From Achromobacter deleyi (GTDB lineage Bacteria; Pseudomonadota; Gammaproteobacteria; Burkholderiales; Burkholderiaceae_B), in assembly GCF_016127315.1 (NCBI RefSeq), contig NZ_CP065997.1, positions 6,138,001-6,202,000 of the forward strand: a stretch of DNA of 64,000 nucleotides, written 5' to 3'. The first letter of the stretch is position 1, and the number at the start of each line of letters is the position of its first letter. Made by a program: the position numbers and the translations under genes. Of the stretch, positions 22,847-31,121 are shown in pieces. The notes under the pieces are model-generated. The model was not told the DNA's origin. It saw nothing but the letters and a program-made list of their open reading frames with translations, and did no database searches.

Positions 22847-23368
22847 ATGAAAAAGTGCCTCGCCACCACCGCCCACCAGGTCGGAGGCCTCTACCGCGAG
22901 CATCACGGCTGGCTGCGCAACTGGCTTCGCACCAAGGTCCGCCGCGCCGAGGACGCCGATGACCTGACCCAGGACACGTTCGTCCGCGTCCTCTGCGCCG
23001 CCCCTCCCCCCCATACCGACACCTCCCGCCTGCGCGAACCCCGGGCCTACCTGGCTACCGTGGCCGGACGGCTGGTCGCCAATTTCTACCGCCGGCAGGC
23101 GCTCGAGATCACCTATCTCGAAGTGCTGGCGACGCTGCCACCGCAGCAGGTCCCTTCCGTCGAGACCCAGGCGCTGGTGCGCGAAGCGCTGTTCGAGTTC
23201 GACCGCATGCTCGACGGCCTCGACCCGAAGGTGCGCCTGGCCCTCGTGCTATCGCAATTCCAGGGGCTGCCCTACGCGCAGATCGCCGTGCGCCTGAACG
23301 TTTCACTGCGCACGGTCAAGAACTACATCGCCCAGGCCATGGCGCACTGCTGCCTGGCCGCCGTCTGA
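22847..23368 (+). CDS. FecI-type extracytoplasmic-function sigma factor
   Basis: A 173-residue ECF sigma factor of the iron-starvation class. Region 2 contains YREHHGWLRNWLRTKVRR and AEDADDLTQDTFVRVL. Region 4 contains LSQFQGLPYAQIAVRLNVSLRTVKNYIAQAM, quoted here in outline: the PYAQIAVRLNVSLRTVK helix-turn-helix reads -35 elements. It is 15 bp upstream of fecR and precedes the receptor gene, the classic FecI-FecR-receptor layout. It should drive the receptor promoter and, on the evidence of a shared box, the secreted-protein promoter as well. Confidence 0.93.
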   Translation: MKKCLATTAHQVGGLYREHHGWLRNWLRTKVRRAEDADDLTQDTFVRVLCAAPPPHTDTSRLREPRAYLATVAGRLVANFYRRQALEITYLEVLATLPPQQVPSVETQALVREALFEFDRMLDGLDPKVRLALVLSQFQGLPYAQIAVRLNVSLRTVKNYIAQAMAHCCLAAV

Positions 23369-23383
23369 CGGCCGATTGACCGC

Positions 23384-24370
23384 ATGGCCGAGGCCCTCAC
23401 CCCCGCCCCGCCCTGCGCCGAACAGTTGGCCGTGCACGAGGCAGCGCGCTGGTTCGCCTGCCTGATGGCCGAAGACGCCACACCGCGCGATCATCTCGAC
23501 TGGCAGGCCTGGCTCGACGCCAGCGCCACGCATCGTCAGGCCTGGGAACGGTTGCAGACCGTGCGTTGCGCGTTCGGTCGCGTGCCCGGCAACGTCGCCG
23601 CCGCCGTGCTGAGCCAGCCCACCCGCCGCCAGGCGCAGCGCCGCAGCCTGCTGTCGCTGGCGGGCATGGGCCTGCTGGCCGGCAGTGTCTATGGCGTGGT
23701 GCGCGACAGGGACCCGGACGCGTGGCATACCGCCACCGGCCAACAGCGCCGGCTGCGGCTGGACGACGGCTCCGAGCTCTATCTCAATACGGCCACCCGC
23801 GTGACGCTGGATTTCAACGACGCGTGGCGGCGGGTCGTGCTGCGCACCGGCGAGATCCTGGTGCAGGCGCACCCGGACGACGCCGCGCGGACGACGCGGC
23901 GCCCCTTCGTCGTCAGCACCCCGCACGGCGACATCCTGCCGCAAGAGGCCCGTTTCACGGTGCGTCTGCATGATCGCTCCACGCGAGTCGAGGTGCTGCA
24001 ACAGCGCGCCACGATTCGACCTGGCCGTGCGGCGTATCCGCCCGCCGTTCTGCTGCAGGCTAGCCAGGCGGTGTCATTCGACGGCAGCGGCGCCGGCCCG
24101 GTAGGCGCCGCGGTCGCCGACGCGGCCGCATGGCTGCACGGCCAACTGGCGGTGGTCGACCGGCCGCTGGCCGAGGTCATCGCCGAACTGGCGCGCTATC
24201 GCCCCGGCATCCTGCGCTGCGACCCGGCCGTGGCGGACCTGAAGGTCTCCGGTGTCTTCTCGTTGCGCGACACCGACGAAGCGCTTGCGGCAATCTCGGA
24301 CAGTTTCCCCGTACAGGTGCGACGGCATACGCGCTACTGGGTAACGGTCATGGCGCGCCCGGTGGCGTAG
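23384..24370 (+). CDS. FecR-family anti-sigma/signal-transducing membrane protein
   Basis: 328 residues. The N-terminal cytoplasmic anti-sigma part (about 15-60) contains AARWFACLMAEDATPRDHLD and WLDASATHRQAWERL, the typical DUF4880 pattern. One membrane helix spans about 88-107. The periplasmic FecR domain contains TGQQRRLRLDDGSELYLNTA, and the C-terminal STN-like segment contains PLAEVIAELARYRPG. It relays occupancy of the outer-membrane receptor to the sigma factor. An AT-rich inverted repeat followed by T7 lies just after the gene (24423-24448). Confidence 0.93.
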   Translation: MAEALTPAPPCAEQLAVHEAARWFACLMAEDATPRDHLDWQAWLDASATHRQAWERLQTVRCAFGRVPGNVAAAVLSQPTRRQAQRRSLLSLAGMGLLAGSVYGVVRDRDPDAWHTATGQQRRLRLDDGSELYLNTATRVTLDFNDAWRRVVLRTGEILVQAHPDDAARTTRRPFVVSTPHGDILPQEARFTVRLHDRSTRVEVLQQRATIRPGRAAYPPAVLLQASQAVSFDGSGAGPVGAAVADAAAWLHGQLAVVDRPLAEVIAELARYRPGILRCDPAVADLKVSGVFSLRDTDEALAAISDSFPVQVRRHTRYWVTVMARPVA

Positions 24371-24457
24371 CCGGGCGGCGGCGGGCGGCTCGCCCATGCG
24401 TGGGTCGCCGGCCTCCAAGCGCAAATACGATCACATAAGTATTTTTTTCAATCGCAT

Positions 24458-24488
24458 TTGCACTTTTGCATCGCGTCGCGTGTCCTCG
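24458..24488 (+). promoter_or_regulatory. Candidate FecI-type sigma promoter of the receptor gene
   Basis: Bipartite box TTGCACTTT, then seven variable positions, then CGTCGCGTGTCCTCG. The same 31-bp element with 26 identical positions and no gap occurs at 27453-27483. A CGT in the downstream half fits the -10 pattern of iron-starvation sigma factors. It ends 81 bp before the receptor ATG. Confidence 0.6.
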
Positions 24489-24569
24489 TAGCGATGGCGC
24501 CCGCCCTGAACGCGAACCGAACTGCTTCCGGGCCCGCCGCATGTTCAATCTTCCTATCGCCGCATCGCC

Positions 24570-27383
24570 ATGTCCGCTACTTCCCTCGCATCACCGACCA
24601 CCCGCCCCGTCCACCCGCGCACGCGGCGTCCATCGCGCCAATTCACGCTGAATCTCACGCTGCTATGCCTGCTGGCCGCTTTCGCGCCGCTACGTGCCGG
24701 CCATGCGCAAACGCCACCGGCATCCCTGGCCGCCAGCACCTTGCAGGTGGACATCCCGGCCGGTCCGCTGGCCAATGTGCTGAACCAGTTTGCGCAGGCG
24801 ACCGACGTCAGCCTGTCGTTCGACGCATCCCTGCTGGCGGGAAAGGAATCCGCCGGGCTGCGCGGCAGCTTTGACGTGGAGACGGGTTTCCGCCGCATCC
24901 TGCAAGACAGCGGCTTCGAAGCGGTAGCGCGCGCGCCGGGACGCTACATGCTGCGCGGCTTGCCGAAGGCGGCGGATGCGCGGGGCTCGGGTTCGGACTC
25001 GTCGGACGTGACCCAGCTGAACGCCGTCACCGTCAGCGGCTACCGCGAAGGCGACGCGCCCAACCGGGGCTACACCGTCAGCAGCACCTCCAGCGCCACC
25101 AAGCTCGACCTGGCGCCGAAGGAGACGCCGCAGAGCATCACGACGTTCACGGCGCAGCAGATCCAGGATCAGGGCTTGTTGACGGTGGGCGAAGTGCTGG
25201 ACCAGACGCCGGGGATCACGCTGATCACCGCCGGGGTGGCGGGGGCCGGCAACCAGCCGATCTTTTCGCGCACCTTCCCGGTCACGTCGGTGCAGATGGA
25301 CGGCGTCATGGCCAGCAGCTACATCCTGTCGGGCCGTGCGGATGGCAACATCGGGCTGCAGGACTCCTTCCTCTACGAGCGCATCGATATCCTGCGCGGC
25401 TCCACCAGCCTGACCGGCGGCGAGGGCGACGCCTCGGCCAGCCTGAACTTCGTGCGCAAGCATCCCTACCTGGACCGCCACCTGTCGGCGAACCTGAAAT
25501 ACGGCAGCTGGAACAATCGCCGCGCCGAGCTGGACTTTTCCACGCCGATCAATGATCGGCTTCGGGTGCGGCTTGCGGCGGCCATGCAGAAGGGCAACCA
25601 CTGGGTCGAGCGGGTCAAGAGCGACCGCTCGGCGGTGTCGCTGATCGGGGACCTGGACGTGACCGAGAACAATCGTATCAGCGCCGGGGTGACGCAATTC
25701 GACTTCAAGCTGGACGGGGCCTCGCCGCATGGCGTAGCGCGGTTTTCGGAGGTGTACAACAATAGGTTTACAAAAAACGAAATCAAATATCTGCCCGAGG
25801 GCCTGCGCGACCTGCCGCCAGGCACCACCATCTTGCCGACGACCGGCGTTGCGCGCAGCTTCAACAACGCCACCCCGTGGTCGCGCACCCATCGCGCCTA
25901 CACCAATCTGTTCCTGACCTGGGATCATGATTTCAACGACGACTGGTCCTTCAATGCGAGCTACAACCATGCCAGCAACAAGGACGATATCCTGTACGGG
26001 GAAATGGGCAGCGCGTTTTACGTGCCGCAGGCGGCGGCCGATTACGCGCCGGGCGGCATCGCCAGTTACGTGGCGCGGCGCGACAATGATGTGAACATCG
26101 TCAACGCCGTGGACGTCCACCTGAAAGGCCGTATCGAGGTGCTGGGCCGGACGCAGGAATTCGTCGTGGGCGCCAATGCCTATAACACGCATCACATGAG
26201 GTATGGCGGTTATGCCAGTTACGGGACAACGGACTATCCGTATCTCGGGCTCAACCCGTGCAGCCGCTGGGGTAATTTAAATCGGTGCGACCCCCCCCAA
26301 AAAAACCCACTAAATACGATATCGAGCGGCATTCCCATCGACAGCATTGCCTCCAGACCTCCAGAGGATTGGGGCATCCTTTGGGGGGATGATAGTAGTG
26401 GCCGCAATATGTACCGCTCAGTAGAACGATACCTCACCACGTATCGGCAGACCGGATACTACTTCAGCAGCCATTTGCGCCCCATGGAGCGCGTGCACCT
26501 GATCCTGGGCGGCCGCTGGGCCAAGGATGAAAAGAGGGATGCCGGAACTGACTGTTTCGAAGAGGGGCGCTGCTCCAATTATGAGACCACGGCCCCGCTC
26601 ACCAACCCTGTGCTGCGCCCGAAATTCCTGCCCTATGGCGGCCTGATCGTCGAACTGACGCCGCAGATCAACGCCTACTACGGCTATGCCACGTCCTACG
26701 TGCGCGACCCCCAATACAACGGCGAAAATGGCGGCACCAGCCTCCAGACCGGGGCCTATCTGCCGCCGGTGCGCTCGGTCACGGAGGAAGGCGGCGTCAA
26801 GGGCGCGTTCTTCGATGACCGGCTCAATGTCGCGGCCTCGTATTTCCGGATGACACAGAAGGACTTCCCCAGCCAAAGCTACGATCCCAATGCCCCGACC
26901 ACCAACAACAAGGGCTGGCGCGTCTATGGCTGGGAGTTCAACGCCACCGGCGCCATCACCAAGGACTGGAACATCGCGCTGGGCTATGTAAAGCAAAAGC
27001 AGATCCTGCCGCCCTACGAGGGCGAAGTCATGTTCTCCGCCGTGGACGACCTGACCGGCAGCTATCGCGCCCCCGAGAAGTCCCTCAAGCTGTTCACCAC
27101 CTACCGCCTCAAGCGCCTGACCTTGGGCGCGGGTGTGCGCTGGCAAAGCGCCACGCAGTCCGCGTGGATTCCCATGGACACGCGGAAGCGCAAACAGGAC
27201 TGGATGATGAAGCAGGATGCCTACTATCTGGTGGACCTGATGGCGCGCTACCAGATCGACCAGCGTTTCGCCGTGCAGTTGAACGTCAACAACGTGTTCG
27301 ACAAGATCTATTACCAGCATGAGCGGTCCCTGAATTCTGGCGCGCCGCGCAATGCGCTGTTGACTCTGAGCTACCGCTTGTGA
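24570..27383 (+). CDS. TonB-dependent receptor with N-terminal STN signalling domain (siderophore-receptor type)
   Basis: A 937-residue outer-membrane transducer. A signal peptide ends near AGHAQ (about 47). The STN domain (about 60-130) contains VDIPAGPLANVLNQFAQATD and meets FecR. A TonB-box-like NAVTVSG lies near 153. The plug domain contains ETPQSITTFTAQQIQDQG and ILRGSTSLTGGEGDASA. The 22-strand barrel ends LLTLSYRL. Overall it resembles FpvA/FhuE-type ferric-siderophore receptors rather than classical heme receptors. Two predicted surface-loop regions carry Cys pairs (NPCSRWGNLNRCD and DCFEEGRCSNYE). The first overlaps a lower-GC patch with a C8A7 tract. The gene sits between fecIR and the secreted protein/Slam pair, which suggests that it imports the cargo of that secreted protein. 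Confidence 0.93.
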   Translation: MSATSLASPTTRPVHPRTRRPSRQFTLNLTLLCLLAAFAPLRAGHAQTPPASLAASTLQVDIPAGPLANVLNQFAQATDVSLSFDASLLAGKESAGLRGSFDVETGFRRILQDSGFEAVARAPGRYMLRGLPKAADARGSGSDSSDVTQLNAVTVSGYREGDAPNRGYTVSSTSSATKLDLAPKETPQSITTFTAQQIQDQGLLTVGEVLDQTPGITLITAGVAGAGNQPIFSRTFPVTSVQMDGVMASSYILSGRADGNIGLQDSFLYERIDILRGSTSLTGGEGDASASLNFVRKHPYLDRHLSANLKYGSWNNRRAELDFSTPINDRLRVRLAAAMQKGNHWVERVKSDRSAVSLIGDLDVTENNRISAGVTQFDFKLDGASPHGVARFSEVYNNRFTKNEIKYLPEGLRDLPPGTTILPTTGVARSFNNATPWSRTHRAYTNLFLTWDHDFNDDWSFNASYNHASNKDDILYGEMGSAFYVPQAAADYAPGGIASYVARRDNDVNIVNAVDVHLKGRIEVLGRTQEFVVGANAYNTHHMRYGGYASYGTTDYPYLGLNPCSRWGNLNRCDPPQKNPLNTISSGIPIDSIASRPPEDWGILWGDDSSGRNMYRSVERYLTTYRQTGYYFSSHLRPMERVHLILGGRWAKDEKRDAGTDCFEEGRCSNYETTAPLTNPVLRPKFLPYGGLIVELTPQINAYYGYATSYVRDPQYNGENGGTSLQTGAYLPPVRSVTEEGGVKGAFFDDRLNVAASYFRMTQKDFPSQSYDPNAPTTNNKGWRVYGWEFNATGAITKDWNIALGYVKQKQILPPYEGEVMFSAVDDLTGSYRAPEKSLKLFTTYRLKRLTLGAGVRWQSATQSAWIPMDTRKRKQDWMMKQDAYYLVDLMARYQIDQRFAVQLNVNNVFDKIYYQHERSLNSGAPRNALLTLSYRL
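26291..26305 (+). repeat. Adjacent C8 and A7 homopolymer tracts inside the receptor gene
   Basis: Eight C followed directly by seven A, read in frame as Asp-Pro-Pro-Gln-Lys-Asn. Gain or loss of one base would frameshift the receptor in its barrel domain. The copy seen here is in frame (ON). Confidence 0.85.
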
Positions 27384-27452
27384 GTGATCGAGCCAATCCT
27401 TCTACAGCCCGCAAGGAAAACCCATGCAGATACAAATTTTTCGGGCCAACCC

Positions 27453-27483
27453 TTGCACTTTCGCGGGCCGTCGCGTGTCCTCG
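27453..27483 (+). promoter_or_regulatory. Candidate FecI-type sigma promoter of the secreted-protein gene
   Basis: TTGCACTTT and CGTCGCGTGTCCTCG separated by seven bases, matching the receptor box at 24458-24488 at 26 of 31 positions. It lies 143 bp before the ATG of the secreted protein, leaving a long 5' leader. Confidence 0.6.
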
Positions 27484-27626
27484 GTAGTGTGGGCACTGAC
27501 TGGACCGGATTTCCTTGAATGTTCCGGAAACGCCGTCGGGCAGTGAATTCACGTCCCCCAGGACCAACCCGGTTGTTCCTTGGTTGCCACTGGGATTTCT
27601 TACCCTCCTTTTTCAAGGAAATGATC

Positions 27627-28520
27627 ATGAACAGACTCACCCAGATCTCCGCCGCGCTGCTTCTGGCCGGCTTTGCCGGCGCCGCCTCCGCCGGATGGAA
27701 CCAGTTGGACCTCAACCAGCCCAGCAACCTGGAAGGTCAGACAGACGTGGTCTACCAGGGTTCGTTCAACTACAACGGCCAGACCTACGGCCCGTCCACC
27801 GCCGTGGCCGCGCCCACCCAGGCCAGCGCCGGAATCGCCAACGTGTTCGACCTGAACGCCCTGCAAGCCTTCACCCTGTACGGCAAGAACGGCCCCGGCG
27901 GCACGGGCCACAACGATGACTTGAGCCTGACTTCCAACGACAGTTCCTCGGCCGCTGGCGTCAAGACGCCGGTGGTCTACCGTGTGTACCGCCAGAACTA
28001 TTCGGCAGCGGTGGTCAACCTGGCGCGCGGCACCGAGGCCCGCCATTTCGTCAAGAGCATCGTCGGCGACCGGACCGCGCCGGGCACGTTGGTGAACGGC
28101 ACGTACAACTACGCCGGGGTGACCTTCTCCAACTTCCCGCGCGGCATGTTCGACTATCAGGTCACGGTGACCGGGCCGAGCGCGGCCACGGGAGAGGGAT
28201 CGTTCTCGCTGGACGGCATCAAGATTCCGGCCAGGATTTCGCCGACCGCCAAGGATATCGTCTTCAACATCGACGATGGCAAGCTGGATCAGACGGCCCT
28301 GGCCGCGACCGATAACGGGTTGGTCTTCAAGGGGTCGGTGACGGTCAACAGCGCGGATGTCAGCAATCCGGAGGCATGGAAAGAAATCAACAAAGGACCG
28401 CAAGGTACGCCAGAGTACGCCCTGACCCTGTTCGGCCCGAACGGCGCGGAAATCGCCGGCGCCATCACCGGCCTGCCGGATCGTATCGGCGGCGTGGCCG
28501 TCATCGGCGCCAAGCAGTAA
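27627..28520 (+). CDS. Secreted Slam-dependent, hemophilin/TbpB-barrel-like protein (type XI secretion cargo)
   Basis: 297 residues. A Sec signal MNRLTQISAALLLAGFAGAA is cleaved near ASA-G and there is no lipobox Cys, so the protein should be soluble. The N-terminal half (about 23-180) would be a ligand-binding handle domain. The C-terminal third has beta-strand repeats ending in LTLFGPNGAEIAGAI and IGGVAVIGAKQ. This pattern closes the eight-stranded barrel of TbpB, factor-H-binding protein and hemophilins, which is the part recognised by Slam. The mature protein has very few His (GTGHNDD, EARHFVK), possible heme ligands. Next to a DUF560 gene and a TonB receptor it resembles the HphA-type hemophore systems. 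The ligand is not known: heme is the first guess, and another metal chelate is possible because the receptor is of siderophore type. AAGGAA six bases before 27627 sets the start. Confidence 0.72.
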   Translation: MNRLTQISAALLLAGFAGAASAGWNQLDLNQPSNLEGQTDVVYQGSFNYNGQTYGPSTAVAAPTQASAGIANVFDLNALQAFTLYGKNGPGGTGHNDDLSLTSNDSSSAAGVKTPVVYRVYRQNYSAAVVNLARGTEARHFVKSIVGDRTAPGTLVNGTYNYAGVTFSNFPRGMFDYQVTVTGPSAATGEGSFSLDGIKIPARISPTAKDIVFNIDDGKLDQTALAATDNGLVFKGSVTVNSADVSNPEAWKEINKGPQGTPEYALTLFGPNGAEIAGAITGLPDRIGGVAVIGAKQ

Positions 28521-28583
28521 ACACCGTGGCAAAGCCGGATCAGGGATTTTCATTTAATAGATATCAATCTCACTTGCACTTCT

Positions 28584-28599
28584 ATTTGAAATTTCAAAT
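28584..28599. promoter_or_regulatory. 16-bp perfect palindrome upstream of the Slam gene
   Basis: ATTTGAAATTTCAAAT is a perfect palindrome in an AT-rich island. It is preceded at 28574-28581 by TTGCACTT, the upstream half of the two sigma boxes, but without the downstream CGTGTCC half. It may be an operator or part of a separate promoter for the Slam gene. Confidence 0.45.
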
Positions 28600-28626
28600 T
28601 CCCTGACCGCCGGTCTCGCCCATCAC

Positions 28627-28658
28627 GGACTGCAAGGAGTTTTCCTTGCAGTCCTTTT
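28627..28658 (+). terminator. Strong intrinsic terminator between the secreted-protein and Slam genes
   Basis: Perfect 12-bp stem GGACTGCAAGGA/TCCTTGCAGTCC, a 4-nt loop and TTTT. It lies 106 bp after the secreted-protein stop and 36 bp before the preferred Slam start. Read-through would give little Slam relative to cargo. Confidence 0.85.
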
Positions 28659-28693
28659 GCCTATCTCTCTTCACCGCCGCATCCGGGAGACCC

Positions 28694-30220
28694 GTGCCCC
28701 CTCGTCCTCCGCGCCACCCCGTGCATTTCGCCGCGCCCGCGCTCATCCTCGCGCTGCTCACCCTGGGCCTGCCACCCGTCCTCCAGGCCCAACCCGCCGC
28801 GCCGCTCCCCGCCACCCTGCCCGCCCCCGTCCGCCCCTTGGAGCCGGACACCCCCGCCCTACCGCCCCCGCCGCGCCCCACCCCCGCCATCACGCACCGC
28901 CAGCCCGCCCAGCCCGCGAATCCACCGCTGGAACTGACCGACCAGGACCTGGCCCACAACCTCAAGCTGACCGAACGCATCCTCAACCAGGCCATGCTGC
29001 AGGAAGACTGGAGCACCTTGCGCCGGGTGATGCGCTTCTACCCGTGGATGGCCGGCGTCGACCCGATCCTGCGCGACTACGTCCATGGCGCCCTGCTGCG
29101 CCACGACGGGCGGCTGGCCGAGGCCATCGCGCTTTACCGCCAGTTGATCGCGCAGCATCCCGACCTGGACTACGTGCGGCTGGAATTGGGCACCCTGTTG
29201 ATGGAGGACCGCCAATTCGCGCAGTCCGACGCCGAACTGGCCGACCTGCGCCTGGCATCGCTGGAGCCGGCGGCGCAGCGCAGCGTGATGCAGTACCGGC
29301 AGGCGCTGGCGCAGCAGCGCCGCTGGAATTTCCGCCTGGGCGCGGGCACCGTCTACAGCGACAACGTCAACTCGGCCAACCGCGATCCGATGTTGTATCT
29401 GCCGGTCGCGACGCGGCGCGGGCCACTGTGGGTGCCGTTCGCCAAGAGCCGGGATGCCCTGCCCAAATCGGATTGGGGCTTGAAGTACAGCGGCGGCGCC
29501 AATGTCGAGCGCAATCTCGGCGGACATCACTACTACACGCTGGGCGCGGATATCGATGGCACCGCCTACCGCATGCAGCGCGACTACAGCGACCGCGCCC
29601 TGACCCTGCGCGGCGGCTACAAGTGGCAGGACGCCACGCGTTGGTTCGCCGCGACGCCGCAGGCGGGCCGCAGCTGGATGGGCAGCCGGCGCTACAGCCA
29701 CAACCACGGCATGAGCCTGGAATACGGCTGGCGGCCAACGCCCGGGTGGCAATTGATGGGAGCCTGGCTATGGCTAAAGCGCGGCTATGACGACCGCGCC
29801 TACGCCGCCTACGACGGCCACCTGGACGTGCTGTCGTTGACGGCGATCCGCATCTTCTCGCCGGCGCTGCTGGCCTACGGCAGCGTTGGCCTGCAGCGCG
29901 AGGCGGTGGCGGCGGGCGAGTACGGCTATCGCTTCCCCTGGGCGCAGCTCGGCGTGGTCAAGACCTTCGGGCGGATGCTCGGCGCGCGCTTGAGCGCCCG
30001 CTACGGCCAACAGTCGTATAAGGCGCCCTACGCCCTGTTCCTGAACCAGCGGCGACACGATCATGAATTGCGCGTGGACGCTTCGGTCTGGACGCCGGAT
30101 TTCACGATCGCCGGCCTCGAACCGAAGCTGAACCTCAGCTACCTCAAGGTCACCAGCGACTTGCCCATGTATGCGCGGGACAGGACCGAGGTCAGCCTGA
30201 TGTTGGAGAAACGGTTCTGA
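28694..30220 (+). CDS. Slam (DUF560) outer-membrane protein, type XI secretion system channel
   Basis: 508 residues from a GTG with GGGAG close upstream; a TTG at 28646 is in frame but lies inside the terminator stem. A hydrophobic signal ends near VLQAQP and is followed by a Pro-rich linker. The periplasmic TPR-like domain (about 55-190) contains YVHGALLRHDGRLAEAIALY and RLELGTLLMEDRQFAQSDAE. The C-terminal DUF560 beta-barrel begins near FRLGAGTVYSDNVNSANR and ends EVSLMLEKRF with a terminal Phe. This is the layout of Slam proteins that move TbpB-barrel cargo across the outer membrane. The cargo is almost certainly the preceding gene product. Confidence 0.9.
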   Translation: MPPRPPRHPVHFAAPALILALLTLGLPPVLQAQPAAPLPATLPAPVRPLEPDTPALPPPPRPTPAITHRQPAQPANPPLELTDQDLAHNLKLTERILNQAMLQEDWSTLRRVMRFYPWMAGVDPILRDYVHGALLRHDGRLAEAIALYRQLIAQHPDLDYVRLELGTLLMEDRQFAQSDAELADLRLASLEPAAQRSVMQYRQALAQQRRWNFRLGAGTVYSDNVNSANRDPMLYLPVATRRGPLWVPFAKSRDALPKSDWGLKYSGGANVERNLGGHHYYTLGADIDGTAYRMQRDYSDRALTLRGGYKWQDATRWFAATPQAGRSWMGSRRYSHNHGMSLEYGWRPTPGWQLMGAWLWLKRGYDDRAYAAYDGHLDVLSLTAIRIFSPALLAYGSVGLQREAVAAGEYGYRFPWAQLGVVKTFGRMLGARLSARYGQQSYKAPYALFLNQRRHDHELRVDASVWTPDFTIAGLEPKLNLSYLKVTSDLPMYARDRTEVSLMLEKRF

Positions 30221-30452: not shown

Positions 30453-30791
30453 ATGAAACGCATGCTGAAGCGAAAGCGCTTTGCCCGATGGCAGGCAGAG
30501 GAACGCCTGCCTGACGCCGCGCTCTGCATGGCAGTCAGGGCAATGGAACACGGCTTGATCGACGCCAGCCTGGGAGGCCTGCTCTACAAACAACGAGTCG
30601 CCCGGCCGGGCGGGGGCAAGAGCCATGGATATCGCGCGCTGCTTTCCGCCCGACTTGGTCACCGCTACGTGTTTCTGCATGGCTTCTCCAAGAACGATCA
30701 GGAGAACATAGCGCCGGACGAACAGAAGGCACTGCAATTCGCAGGAAGAGTGTTCCTCGATCTATCCCTGAAGCGCTATCGAAAGCGATAG
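30453..30791 (+). CDS. Type II toxin, RelE/HigB-like superfamily (COG4737-like)
   Basis: A 112-residue basic protein with the family pattern FARWQAEERLPDAALCMAVR, then MEHGLIDASLGG, KQRVARPGGGKSHGYRALL and YVFLHGFSKNDQENI. RelE-superfamily toxins cleave mRNA at the ribosome; catalytic residues are not certain for this subfamily. It has TAGGAGA eight bases before the ATG, and an in-frame Met at residue 4 is an alternative. It precedes its antitoxin, the toxin-first order seen in higBA-like modules. The position just after the Slam gene may be coincidental. Confidence 0.82.
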   Translation: MKRMLKRKRFARWQAEERLPDAALCMAVRAMEHGLIDASLGGLLYKQRVARPGGGKSHGYRALLSARLGHRYVFLHGFSKNDQENIAPDEQKALQFAGRVFLDLSLKRYRKR

Positions 30792-30818
30792 CGTCCGGCA
30801 TCTTATTGGAGATCCCTT

Positions 30819-31121
30819 GTGAGCAAGATCATTGAAGGCATCCGCGACGATCTGGCCGCGCTGCACGATGCGGGCGTAGTCAGCAAAGTCACCATGCGCG
30901 AATTCGACAGCATCTGCCCGCCGCCGGTCCGTCCCCTTGCCGCGGCCGACATCCGCCGCCTGCGCGAATCCCTGAATTTCAGCCAGCCGGTGTTCGCGTT
31001 GCACCTGCACACCACCGCCTCGACCGTGCGCAAGTGGGAACAAGGCGAAACCCGCCCCACGGGCCCGGCGCTCAAGCTGCTCAATCTGATCGCGGACAAG
31101 GGGTTGCGCGCCATCCTCTGA
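30819..31121 (+). CDS. XRE-family antitoxin of the adjacent RelE/HigB-like toxin
   Basis: 100 residues from a GTG with GGAG seven bases upstream. The C-terminal HTH (about 45-85) contains DIRRLRESLNFSQPVFALHL, then HTTASTVRKWEQGETRPTGP. The N-terminal part likely wraps the toxin. It lies 27 bp after the toxin gene, forms one operon with it and should repress it. The pattern resembles NadS/HigA-type antitoxins. Confidence 0.87.
   Translation: MSKIIEGIRDDLAALHDAGVVSKVTMREFDSICPPPVRPLAAADIRRLRESLNFSQPVFALHLHTTASTVRKWEQGETRPTGPALKLLNLIADKGLRAIL

Follow-up and report, generated by a model that had tools for sequence, protein, structure and literature searches.

A 64,000-nucleotide stretch of Achromobacter deleyi (contig NZ_CP065997.1, positions 6,138,001 to 6,202,000; hereafter the window) carries a locus that we read as a candidate iron-uptake system in which a secreted protein, its exporter, its receptor and a dedicated Sigma factor are encoded side by side. 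Five consecutive genes lie on the plus strand, and their positions, order and families agree with what a first-pass annotation of the window had listed. The first (22847..23368) encodes a FecI-type extracytoplasmic function (ECF) Sigma factor with Pfam Sigma70_r2 and r4_2 domains, which matches the NCBIfam FecI model at 183.6 bits, below its 260-bit equivalog cut-off. The second (23384..24370) encodes a FecR-type Sigma regulator, recognized by Pfam and NCBIfam, with a DUF4880 domain besides the FecR domain (59.7 bits). The third (24570..27383) encodes a TonB-dependent receptor and transducer in which an STN signalling domain precedes a plug and barrel of the FpvA/FauA/FhuE type. The STN domain occupies receptor residues 57-131 (24738..24962, plus strand); its Pfam match (residues 80-129, 27.0 bits, E value 4e-6) is slightly below the 28.4-bit cut-off, and we hold to the assignment because the solved signalling domains of PupB, FecA and HasR in the PDB match it, those of PupB and FecA at E values of about 5e-10. 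The fourth gene (27627..28520) encodes a 297-amino-acid protein, the putative cargo, related to factor H-binding protein (fHbp), and the fifth (28694..30220, its start chosen by comparison, see below) a Slam (DUF560) outer-membrane channel of the type XI secretion system (T11SS). Both domains of such a channel, TPR and barrel, are present (TPR_Slam 87.7 bits, SlipAM 150.9 bits), and this is the one SlipAM gene found in the genome; a phmmer search of the Slam product against the PDB gave two weak TPR matches. An ECF Sigma factor and a FecR regulator thus adjoin an STN receptor, the arrangement of FecIR cell-surface signalling.

The cargo is where our analysis departs most from the first-pass annotation, which had called it TbpB/hemophilin-like and had seen a TbpB-type barrel pattern at its end. 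Its sole notable Pfam match is FHBP_C, at 27.8 bits slightly below the 28.1-bit cut-off, and the same domain is above cut-off in all five relatives that were scanned. An eight-stranded C-terminal barrel had been set beforehand as the structural test of the reading, and AlphaFold2 predicts eight strands within residues 158-296 (mean pLDDT 86.7, pTM 0.84); with Foldseek and VIA-align the barrel is placed at residues 158-297 (28098..28517, plus strand). The fold match to fHbp spans model residues 22-297. Agreeing with fHbp in both sequence profile and predicted fold, the cargo is best described as an fHbp homologue. The barrel therefore stands, and its type is that of fHbp and lipoprotein-C, not TbpB_B_D; a TbpB-like cargo was rejected since fHbp is closer by profile and by fold. 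Hemophilin membership was rejected as well: neither HphA_N nor HphA_C matches the cargo at an E value of 0.1 in Pfam, whereas other loci of the order do match, no histidine column is conserved through the 21 aligned cargo sequences (alignment A1, drawn from 40 homologues found), and the receptor beside it is not of the heme type. A phmmer search of the single cargo sequence against the PDB returned weak, unrelated matches only, and HasA has no row among the fold matches shown, which excludes nothing.

Cysteine is absent from all 21 aligned sequences, that of the window included, so that the lipid anchor of fHbp has no attachment site here; because of this and of a type I signal peptide, recognized by eye, we take the cargo to be a soluble secreted protein. 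With this Sec-type signal peptide, a predicted eight-stranded C-terminal barrel and an adjoining Slam gene, it has the features of a T11SS cargo. Its solubility, which had been singled out as unusual, is not new in itself, since soluble Slam cargo and its use of heme are established in the sections consulted of two papers (PMC8406197, PMC8560813). Likewise, the consulted part of Grossman et al. 2025 (PMC12282271) describes a group of soluble fHbp-like T11SS cargo (285 soluble proteins and 54 lipidated ones), and the present cargo is of the same kind by its C-terminal lipoprotein-C/FHBP_C barrel. In that part of the paper the group has no match to the fHbp N-terminal domain, whereas here the fold match begins at residue 22, and a receptor partner and a mode of regulation can be added to what it describes. 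Meningococcal fHbp, in the sources consulted, is a lipoprotein; its relative here is soluble and lies within a receptor-Slam locus.

The association of these genes recurs. We compared the window with nine named loci (L007-L015; ten loci altogether) from Achromobacter dolens, A. ruhlandii, A. insuavis, Paracandidimonas soli, Corticimicrobacter populi, Alcaligenaceae bacterium CGII-56, Allopusillimonas ginsengisoli, Lampropedia cohaerens and Corticibacter populi. The receptor is immediately upstream of the cargo, and Slam downstream, in 9/9 of these loci from other species, and because it recurs in this way the arrangement is not due to chance. FecI- and FecR-type genes are also present in 9/9, lying downstream and inverted in L010, with a reduced FecR in L012 and L013 and a Sigma factor chosen by position in L015. 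One extra gene separates cargo and Slam in two of the nine (Lampropedia and Corticibacter). It encodes a protein of 587-606 amino acids with a lipobox seen by eye (L014:11014-12777, L015:10953-12773), possibly a second, lipidated cargo; the L014 protein, the only one scanned, has no Pfam match.

The cargo is sparsely distributed, its closest named relatives being from Achromobacter. Among the 101 nearest genomes it occurs in six and Slam in 20; in all six the cargo adjoins a Slam gene, so the regular separation of the two, which had been named as grounds for abandoning the reading, was not seen there. At wider range it was found in 9/268 genomes of the family and 8/399 of the order, seven of the latter eight (six of them weak matches) being in one other family, which we take to be the Neisseriaceae. 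One genome of that other family holds a decayed version (L059) in which receptor, cargo and Slam are each fragmented and neither FecI nor FecR gave a match. Carriage by plasmids or viruses was considered and rejected: the cargo has no plasmid match at an E value of 1e-5, and none of seven stretches of viral contigs that fit a pattern encodes a relative. A genome search with PF08794 gave no match, even in this genome, a miss of the search since hmmscan finds the domain there.

Some distant fHbp-type relatives have no Slam gene next to them, which bears on one alternative. In this view the cargo has no role in uptake; it would work at the surface or in immune evasion, as meningococcal fHbp does, and only share iron regulation with the adjoining genes. 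Four such relatives were fetched (L060-L063). All are weak matches whose starts resemble a lipobox by eye, and in 18 kb neither a receptor nor Slam gave a match, which, with the homology to fHbp in sequence and fold, is what this explanation would lead one to expect. Yet the cargo is unanchored, lacking cysteine throughout the alignment, its relatives come from soil- or plant-named species besides clinical ones, the same kind of receptor stands beside it in all nine loci and in the decayed copy, and its divergence tracks that of the receptor barrel (see below). We regard immune evasion as decidedly unlikely to account for the locus.

The loci L010 and L011 reveal that the sensing and transport parts of the system can be exchanged. 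Between these two, identity is 82% for the receptor plug-barrel, 83% for the cargo and 79% for Slam, against 36% for FecI, 39% for FecR and 40% for STN, and along the receptor (windows of 40) it leaps from 20-55% to 85-100% right before the plug. Over the eight loci that have all parts (28 pairs; L012 and L013, being STN-less, were left out), distances correlate at 0.99 between STN and FecR and at 0.98 between plug/barrel and cargo, compared with 0.67 between STN and cargo. In L012 FecR is shortened to its DUF4880 domain, L013 is alike by length, and no STN match was found in the receptor of either. From the exchange, the correlations and this joint loss, STN appears to travel with FecR and FecI, and the cargo with the transport part of the receptor. 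These patterns support a functional STN-FecR partnership, as cell-surface signalling would predict.

A promoter-like motif, TTGCACTTTY-N7-GTCGCGTGTCC, offers a second view of the regulation. One copy (24458..24485, plus strand) ends 84 bases before the receptor start and the other (27453..27480, plus strand) 146 bases before the cargo start; at up to three mismatches these two are the only sites in the whole genome, and a reversed control gave 0. The receptor copy is present in 5/5 loci (window included) whose FecI is at least 71% identical to that of the window, and in 0/5 of those whose FecI is 24-54% identical. When the regions upstream of receptor and cargo were compared over 30 bases with 20 shuffles, similarity was well above the shuffles in the window and L011 (25 vs 19), slightly above in L008 (22 vs 20) and below in the five loci with a different FecI. 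Because the motif is unique in the genome and co-varies with the FecI orthologue, the proposal that FecI would fire two promoters, before receptor and cargo, is supported. We make no such proposal for Fur. Against a 19-base consensus, the regions upstream of FecI and of Slam each score 12/19 in the window, a score that 82 of 1500 background windows reach; not being clearly above background, these boxes were rejected (the FecI upstream region scores 13 in L012, L013 and L015). As a whole, the results support the earlier proposal that a siderophore-type signalling receptor under FecIR control has a soluble protein as its partner, encoded next to Slam, and the proposal has gained strength from linkage, module exchange and the promoter motif.

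The region between cargo and Slam adds a possible control on the ratio of the two products. A terminator-like hairpin (28627..28654, plus strand) followed by TTTT folds better than all of its shuffles (0/200 fold as well, z score -5.2), and hairpins of other sequence lie at the same place in 5/5 other loci folded (z scores -3.1 to -6.0; 4/200 shuffles fold as well in L010, 0 in the other four). The hairpin also bears on the start of Slam. The TTG codon at 28646 is disfavoured, and the GTG at 28694 appears the more likely start because the TTG falls within the hairpin, while the GTG is preceded by GGGAG and shares its alignment column with GTG codons in L007-L009; L010 has an ATG (11045) close to, yet outside, this column. 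Before the hairpin, an AT-rich and partly palindromic element noted by eye (28553..28591, no strand assigned) has similar counterparts, again by eye, in L007-L011; the Fur-box score of 12/19 given above for the Slam upstream region also applies to this element. Downstream, between Slam and an AraC-type regulator, the window carries a RelE-family toxin gene (PF06296, 121 bits) followed by a helix-turn-helix antitoxin-like gene (30453-31121, plus strand).

The class of the receptor provides the main clue to the ligand. The closest solved receptors are of the FauA/FhuE/FpvA type and carry ferric siderophores; the receptor profile leans that way by construction, as it includes 12 outgroup receptors of which several are named siderophore receptors, and the PDB matches are free of this bias. 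The receptor alignment (A2) excludes six sequences that are truncated (P0052, P0053, P0055-P0058). Four of them (P0052, P0053, P0055 and P0056) are homologues of 608-634 amino acids covering 64% of the query, three of these four being named Achromobacter xylosoxidans, and the receptor seems to be shortened in some strains. Another homologue (P0067, 40% identical) has Salmonella enterica as its source label, probably from a mislabelled contig.

We also asked how often Slam genes and FecIR modules meet elsewhere, using hidden Markov models built from the window and L007-L015, whose matches in those loci arise by construction and in other loci do not. Among 40 other Slam neighbourhoods (L019-L058, hand-picked, mostly the strongest, several reaching contig ends, and L036 matching no model), FecR and STN occur together in two (L033 and L024) and FecI in four (L020, L024, L033 and L034). 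In L033 the system of the window recurs, in a further genome of the genus. The other, L024 (10849-18180, minus strand), which we take to be a second locus of the genome taken as Paracandidimonas soli, encodes FecI, FecR, a 1094-amino-acid heme-type STN receptor, Slam, and a cargo that shares 48% identity with a protein weakly resembling HphA. It seems to be the wiring of the Has system with a Slam exporter, and because it pairs FecIR and Slam with a heme-type receptor and an HphA-related cargo, this wiring seems to exist in two versions. Across the seven loci in which both were scanned, receptor class follows cargo class. This count left out L040, L047 and L053, whose receptors fit the window-receptor model well (that of L047 being FauA-type) with a cargo not established, L034, with a heme-type receptor and no cargo found, and L023, with a transferrin-type receptor and a cargo outside the scan.

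From the observed gene order, families, predicted fold, linkage, module exchange and motif distribution, we infer the following scheme for secretion, ligand binding, recapture and signalling. Under iron limitation, FecI and FecR would be made. The fHbp-fold cargo would leave the cytoplasm by Sec and cross the outer membrane through Slam as a free, soluble protein, as its family, signal peptide and linkage suggest. Outside the cell it would bind an iron chelate, for which a ferric siderophore is the most likely candidate, and would present this ligand to the FpvA/FauA-type receptor, whose engagement STN would relay to FecR, a step to which the co-exchange lends support. FecR would then release FecI action at the two promoter sites before receptor and cargo, and the hairpin would hold cargo expression above that of the exporter. 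We consider the wiring of the locus very probable in this form, and the full scheme, a self-regulating uptake system with a Slam-exported binder, recapture by the receptor and FecIR signalling, slightly more probable than not. As to the ligand, a siderophore or other small ferric chelate is preferred because of the kin of the receptor and because, according to Veggi et al. 2012 (as cited in the parts consulted of PMC3731240 and PMC5607398), fHbp binds xenosiderophores in vitro, and we give this choice an even chance. In the most specific form of the scheme, which we consider less likely than not, the cargo would be an extracellular ferric-siderophore carrier (a “siderophore-phore”) that leaves the cell through Slam, takes up its load there, returns to its own receptor and is sensed through FecIR. 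Meningococcal fHbp would be its lipidated descendant or sister, co-opted to bind factor H; such a kinship would explain the siderophore binding reported for fHbp in vitro.

Several observations weigh against this scheme. In the receptor, H387 and H917 are conserved in 23/23 sequences of at least 40% identity (a family delimited by identity), H387 also in 4/12 outgroup sequences and H917 in 0/12, and such histidines might accommodate heme or a metal. Of the five motif-bearing loci, only two (window and L011) have an exact copy before the cargo; that of L007 differs by one base and those of L008 and L009 are degenerate, and the upstream 30-base similarity is barely above shuffles in L007 (22 vs 21) and not above in L009 (20 vs 20). 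The Fur-box score upstream of FecI is marginal. The correlation contrast leans on L010, since without it STN-cargo rises to 0.81 (STN-FecR 0.99 and plug/barrel-cargo 0.98 as before), and these values come from pairwise distances, which are not independent data and which linkage alone lifts. The FecIR-receptor half of the wiring is nothing unusual in this family, because a Kerstersia genome has many receptor sets beside fecIR, according to the consulted part of its genome paper (where the terms “DUF560”, “factor H” and “hemophore” are absent); FecIR together with Slam is rarer than FecIR beside a receptor. Finally, cargo and receptor could be mere neighbours that do not touch.

The conserved histidines lend themselves to two other ligands. 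Heme is the main rival: the cargo would be a hemophore and, like HphA or HasA, would pass heme on to the receptor, and the siderophore look of the receptor would reflect ancestry only. Given a cargo without HphA domains or a conserved histidine, we hold this to be unlikely. Most unlikely, in our judgement, is that the cargo feeds the receptor a non-iron metal or a protein-bound nutrient; family-specific loop insertions in the receptor join the histidines in its favour, and T11SS has been proposed for cofactor uptake in the consulted part of PMC12282271, but the closest solved receptors carry ferric siderophores and the cargo has few histidines and no cysteine.

Set beside known systems, the locus resembles most in its order the has operon of Serratia marcescens (hasI-hasS-hasR-hasA-hasD-hasE-hasB), with Sigma factor, anti-Sigma factor, signalling receptor, secreted binder and exporter in succession, secretion and binding being presumed here. 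According to the consulted part of a review (PMC9249621), the -35 regions of hasS and hasR have a word in common, and heme and the hemophore jointly trigger Has induction at the receptor. The binder is thus part of the signal in Has, and the same may hold here. Unlike in Has, the gene after the cargo encodes Slam rather than HasDE, the binder has the fHbp fold, the receptor is FpvA/FauA-type, and there is no TonB gene among the locus genes scanned. With the hemophilin systems (HphA-HphR-Slam in Acinetobacter, HrpC-HrpA-HrpB in Xenorhabdus), the locus has in common that the Slam cargo is soluble, carries a C-terminal barrel and is encoded next to a TonB receptor. It differs from them in a cargo that is not HphA-like by Pfam or by conserved histidine (an H43A/H106A mutant of HphA is named in the consulted part of PMC8560813), in a siderophore-type receptor and in the presence of the FecIR/STN module. 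Its STN receptor, FecR-type regulator and ECF Sigma factor are those of FpvA/FpvI/FpvR, PupB/PupI/PupR and FecA/FecI/FecR, systems that respond to the iron carrier itself and have no secreted protein partner in the review table rows consulted (PMC9249621).

In conclusion, the locus consists of known parts in what would be a new combination, with a new ligand class that would be testable. In the literature searched (with few subscription journals), no paper among the matches listed visibly connects FecI/FecR signalling with Slam or type XI secretion, and the terms “FecR” and “sigma factor” are absent from the main text of two T11SS surveys (PMC12282271, PMC8406197). If true, our reading would join cell-surface signalling and type XI secretion, separate fields in that literature. 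In L010 and L011, nature has already split sensing (STN, FecR, FecI and promoter) from uptake (barrel, cargo and Slam), and this natural exchange makes the question directly testable. If the reading holds, fHbp-type proteins, known from a vaccine antigen, would also gain a plausible older role in iron uptake.

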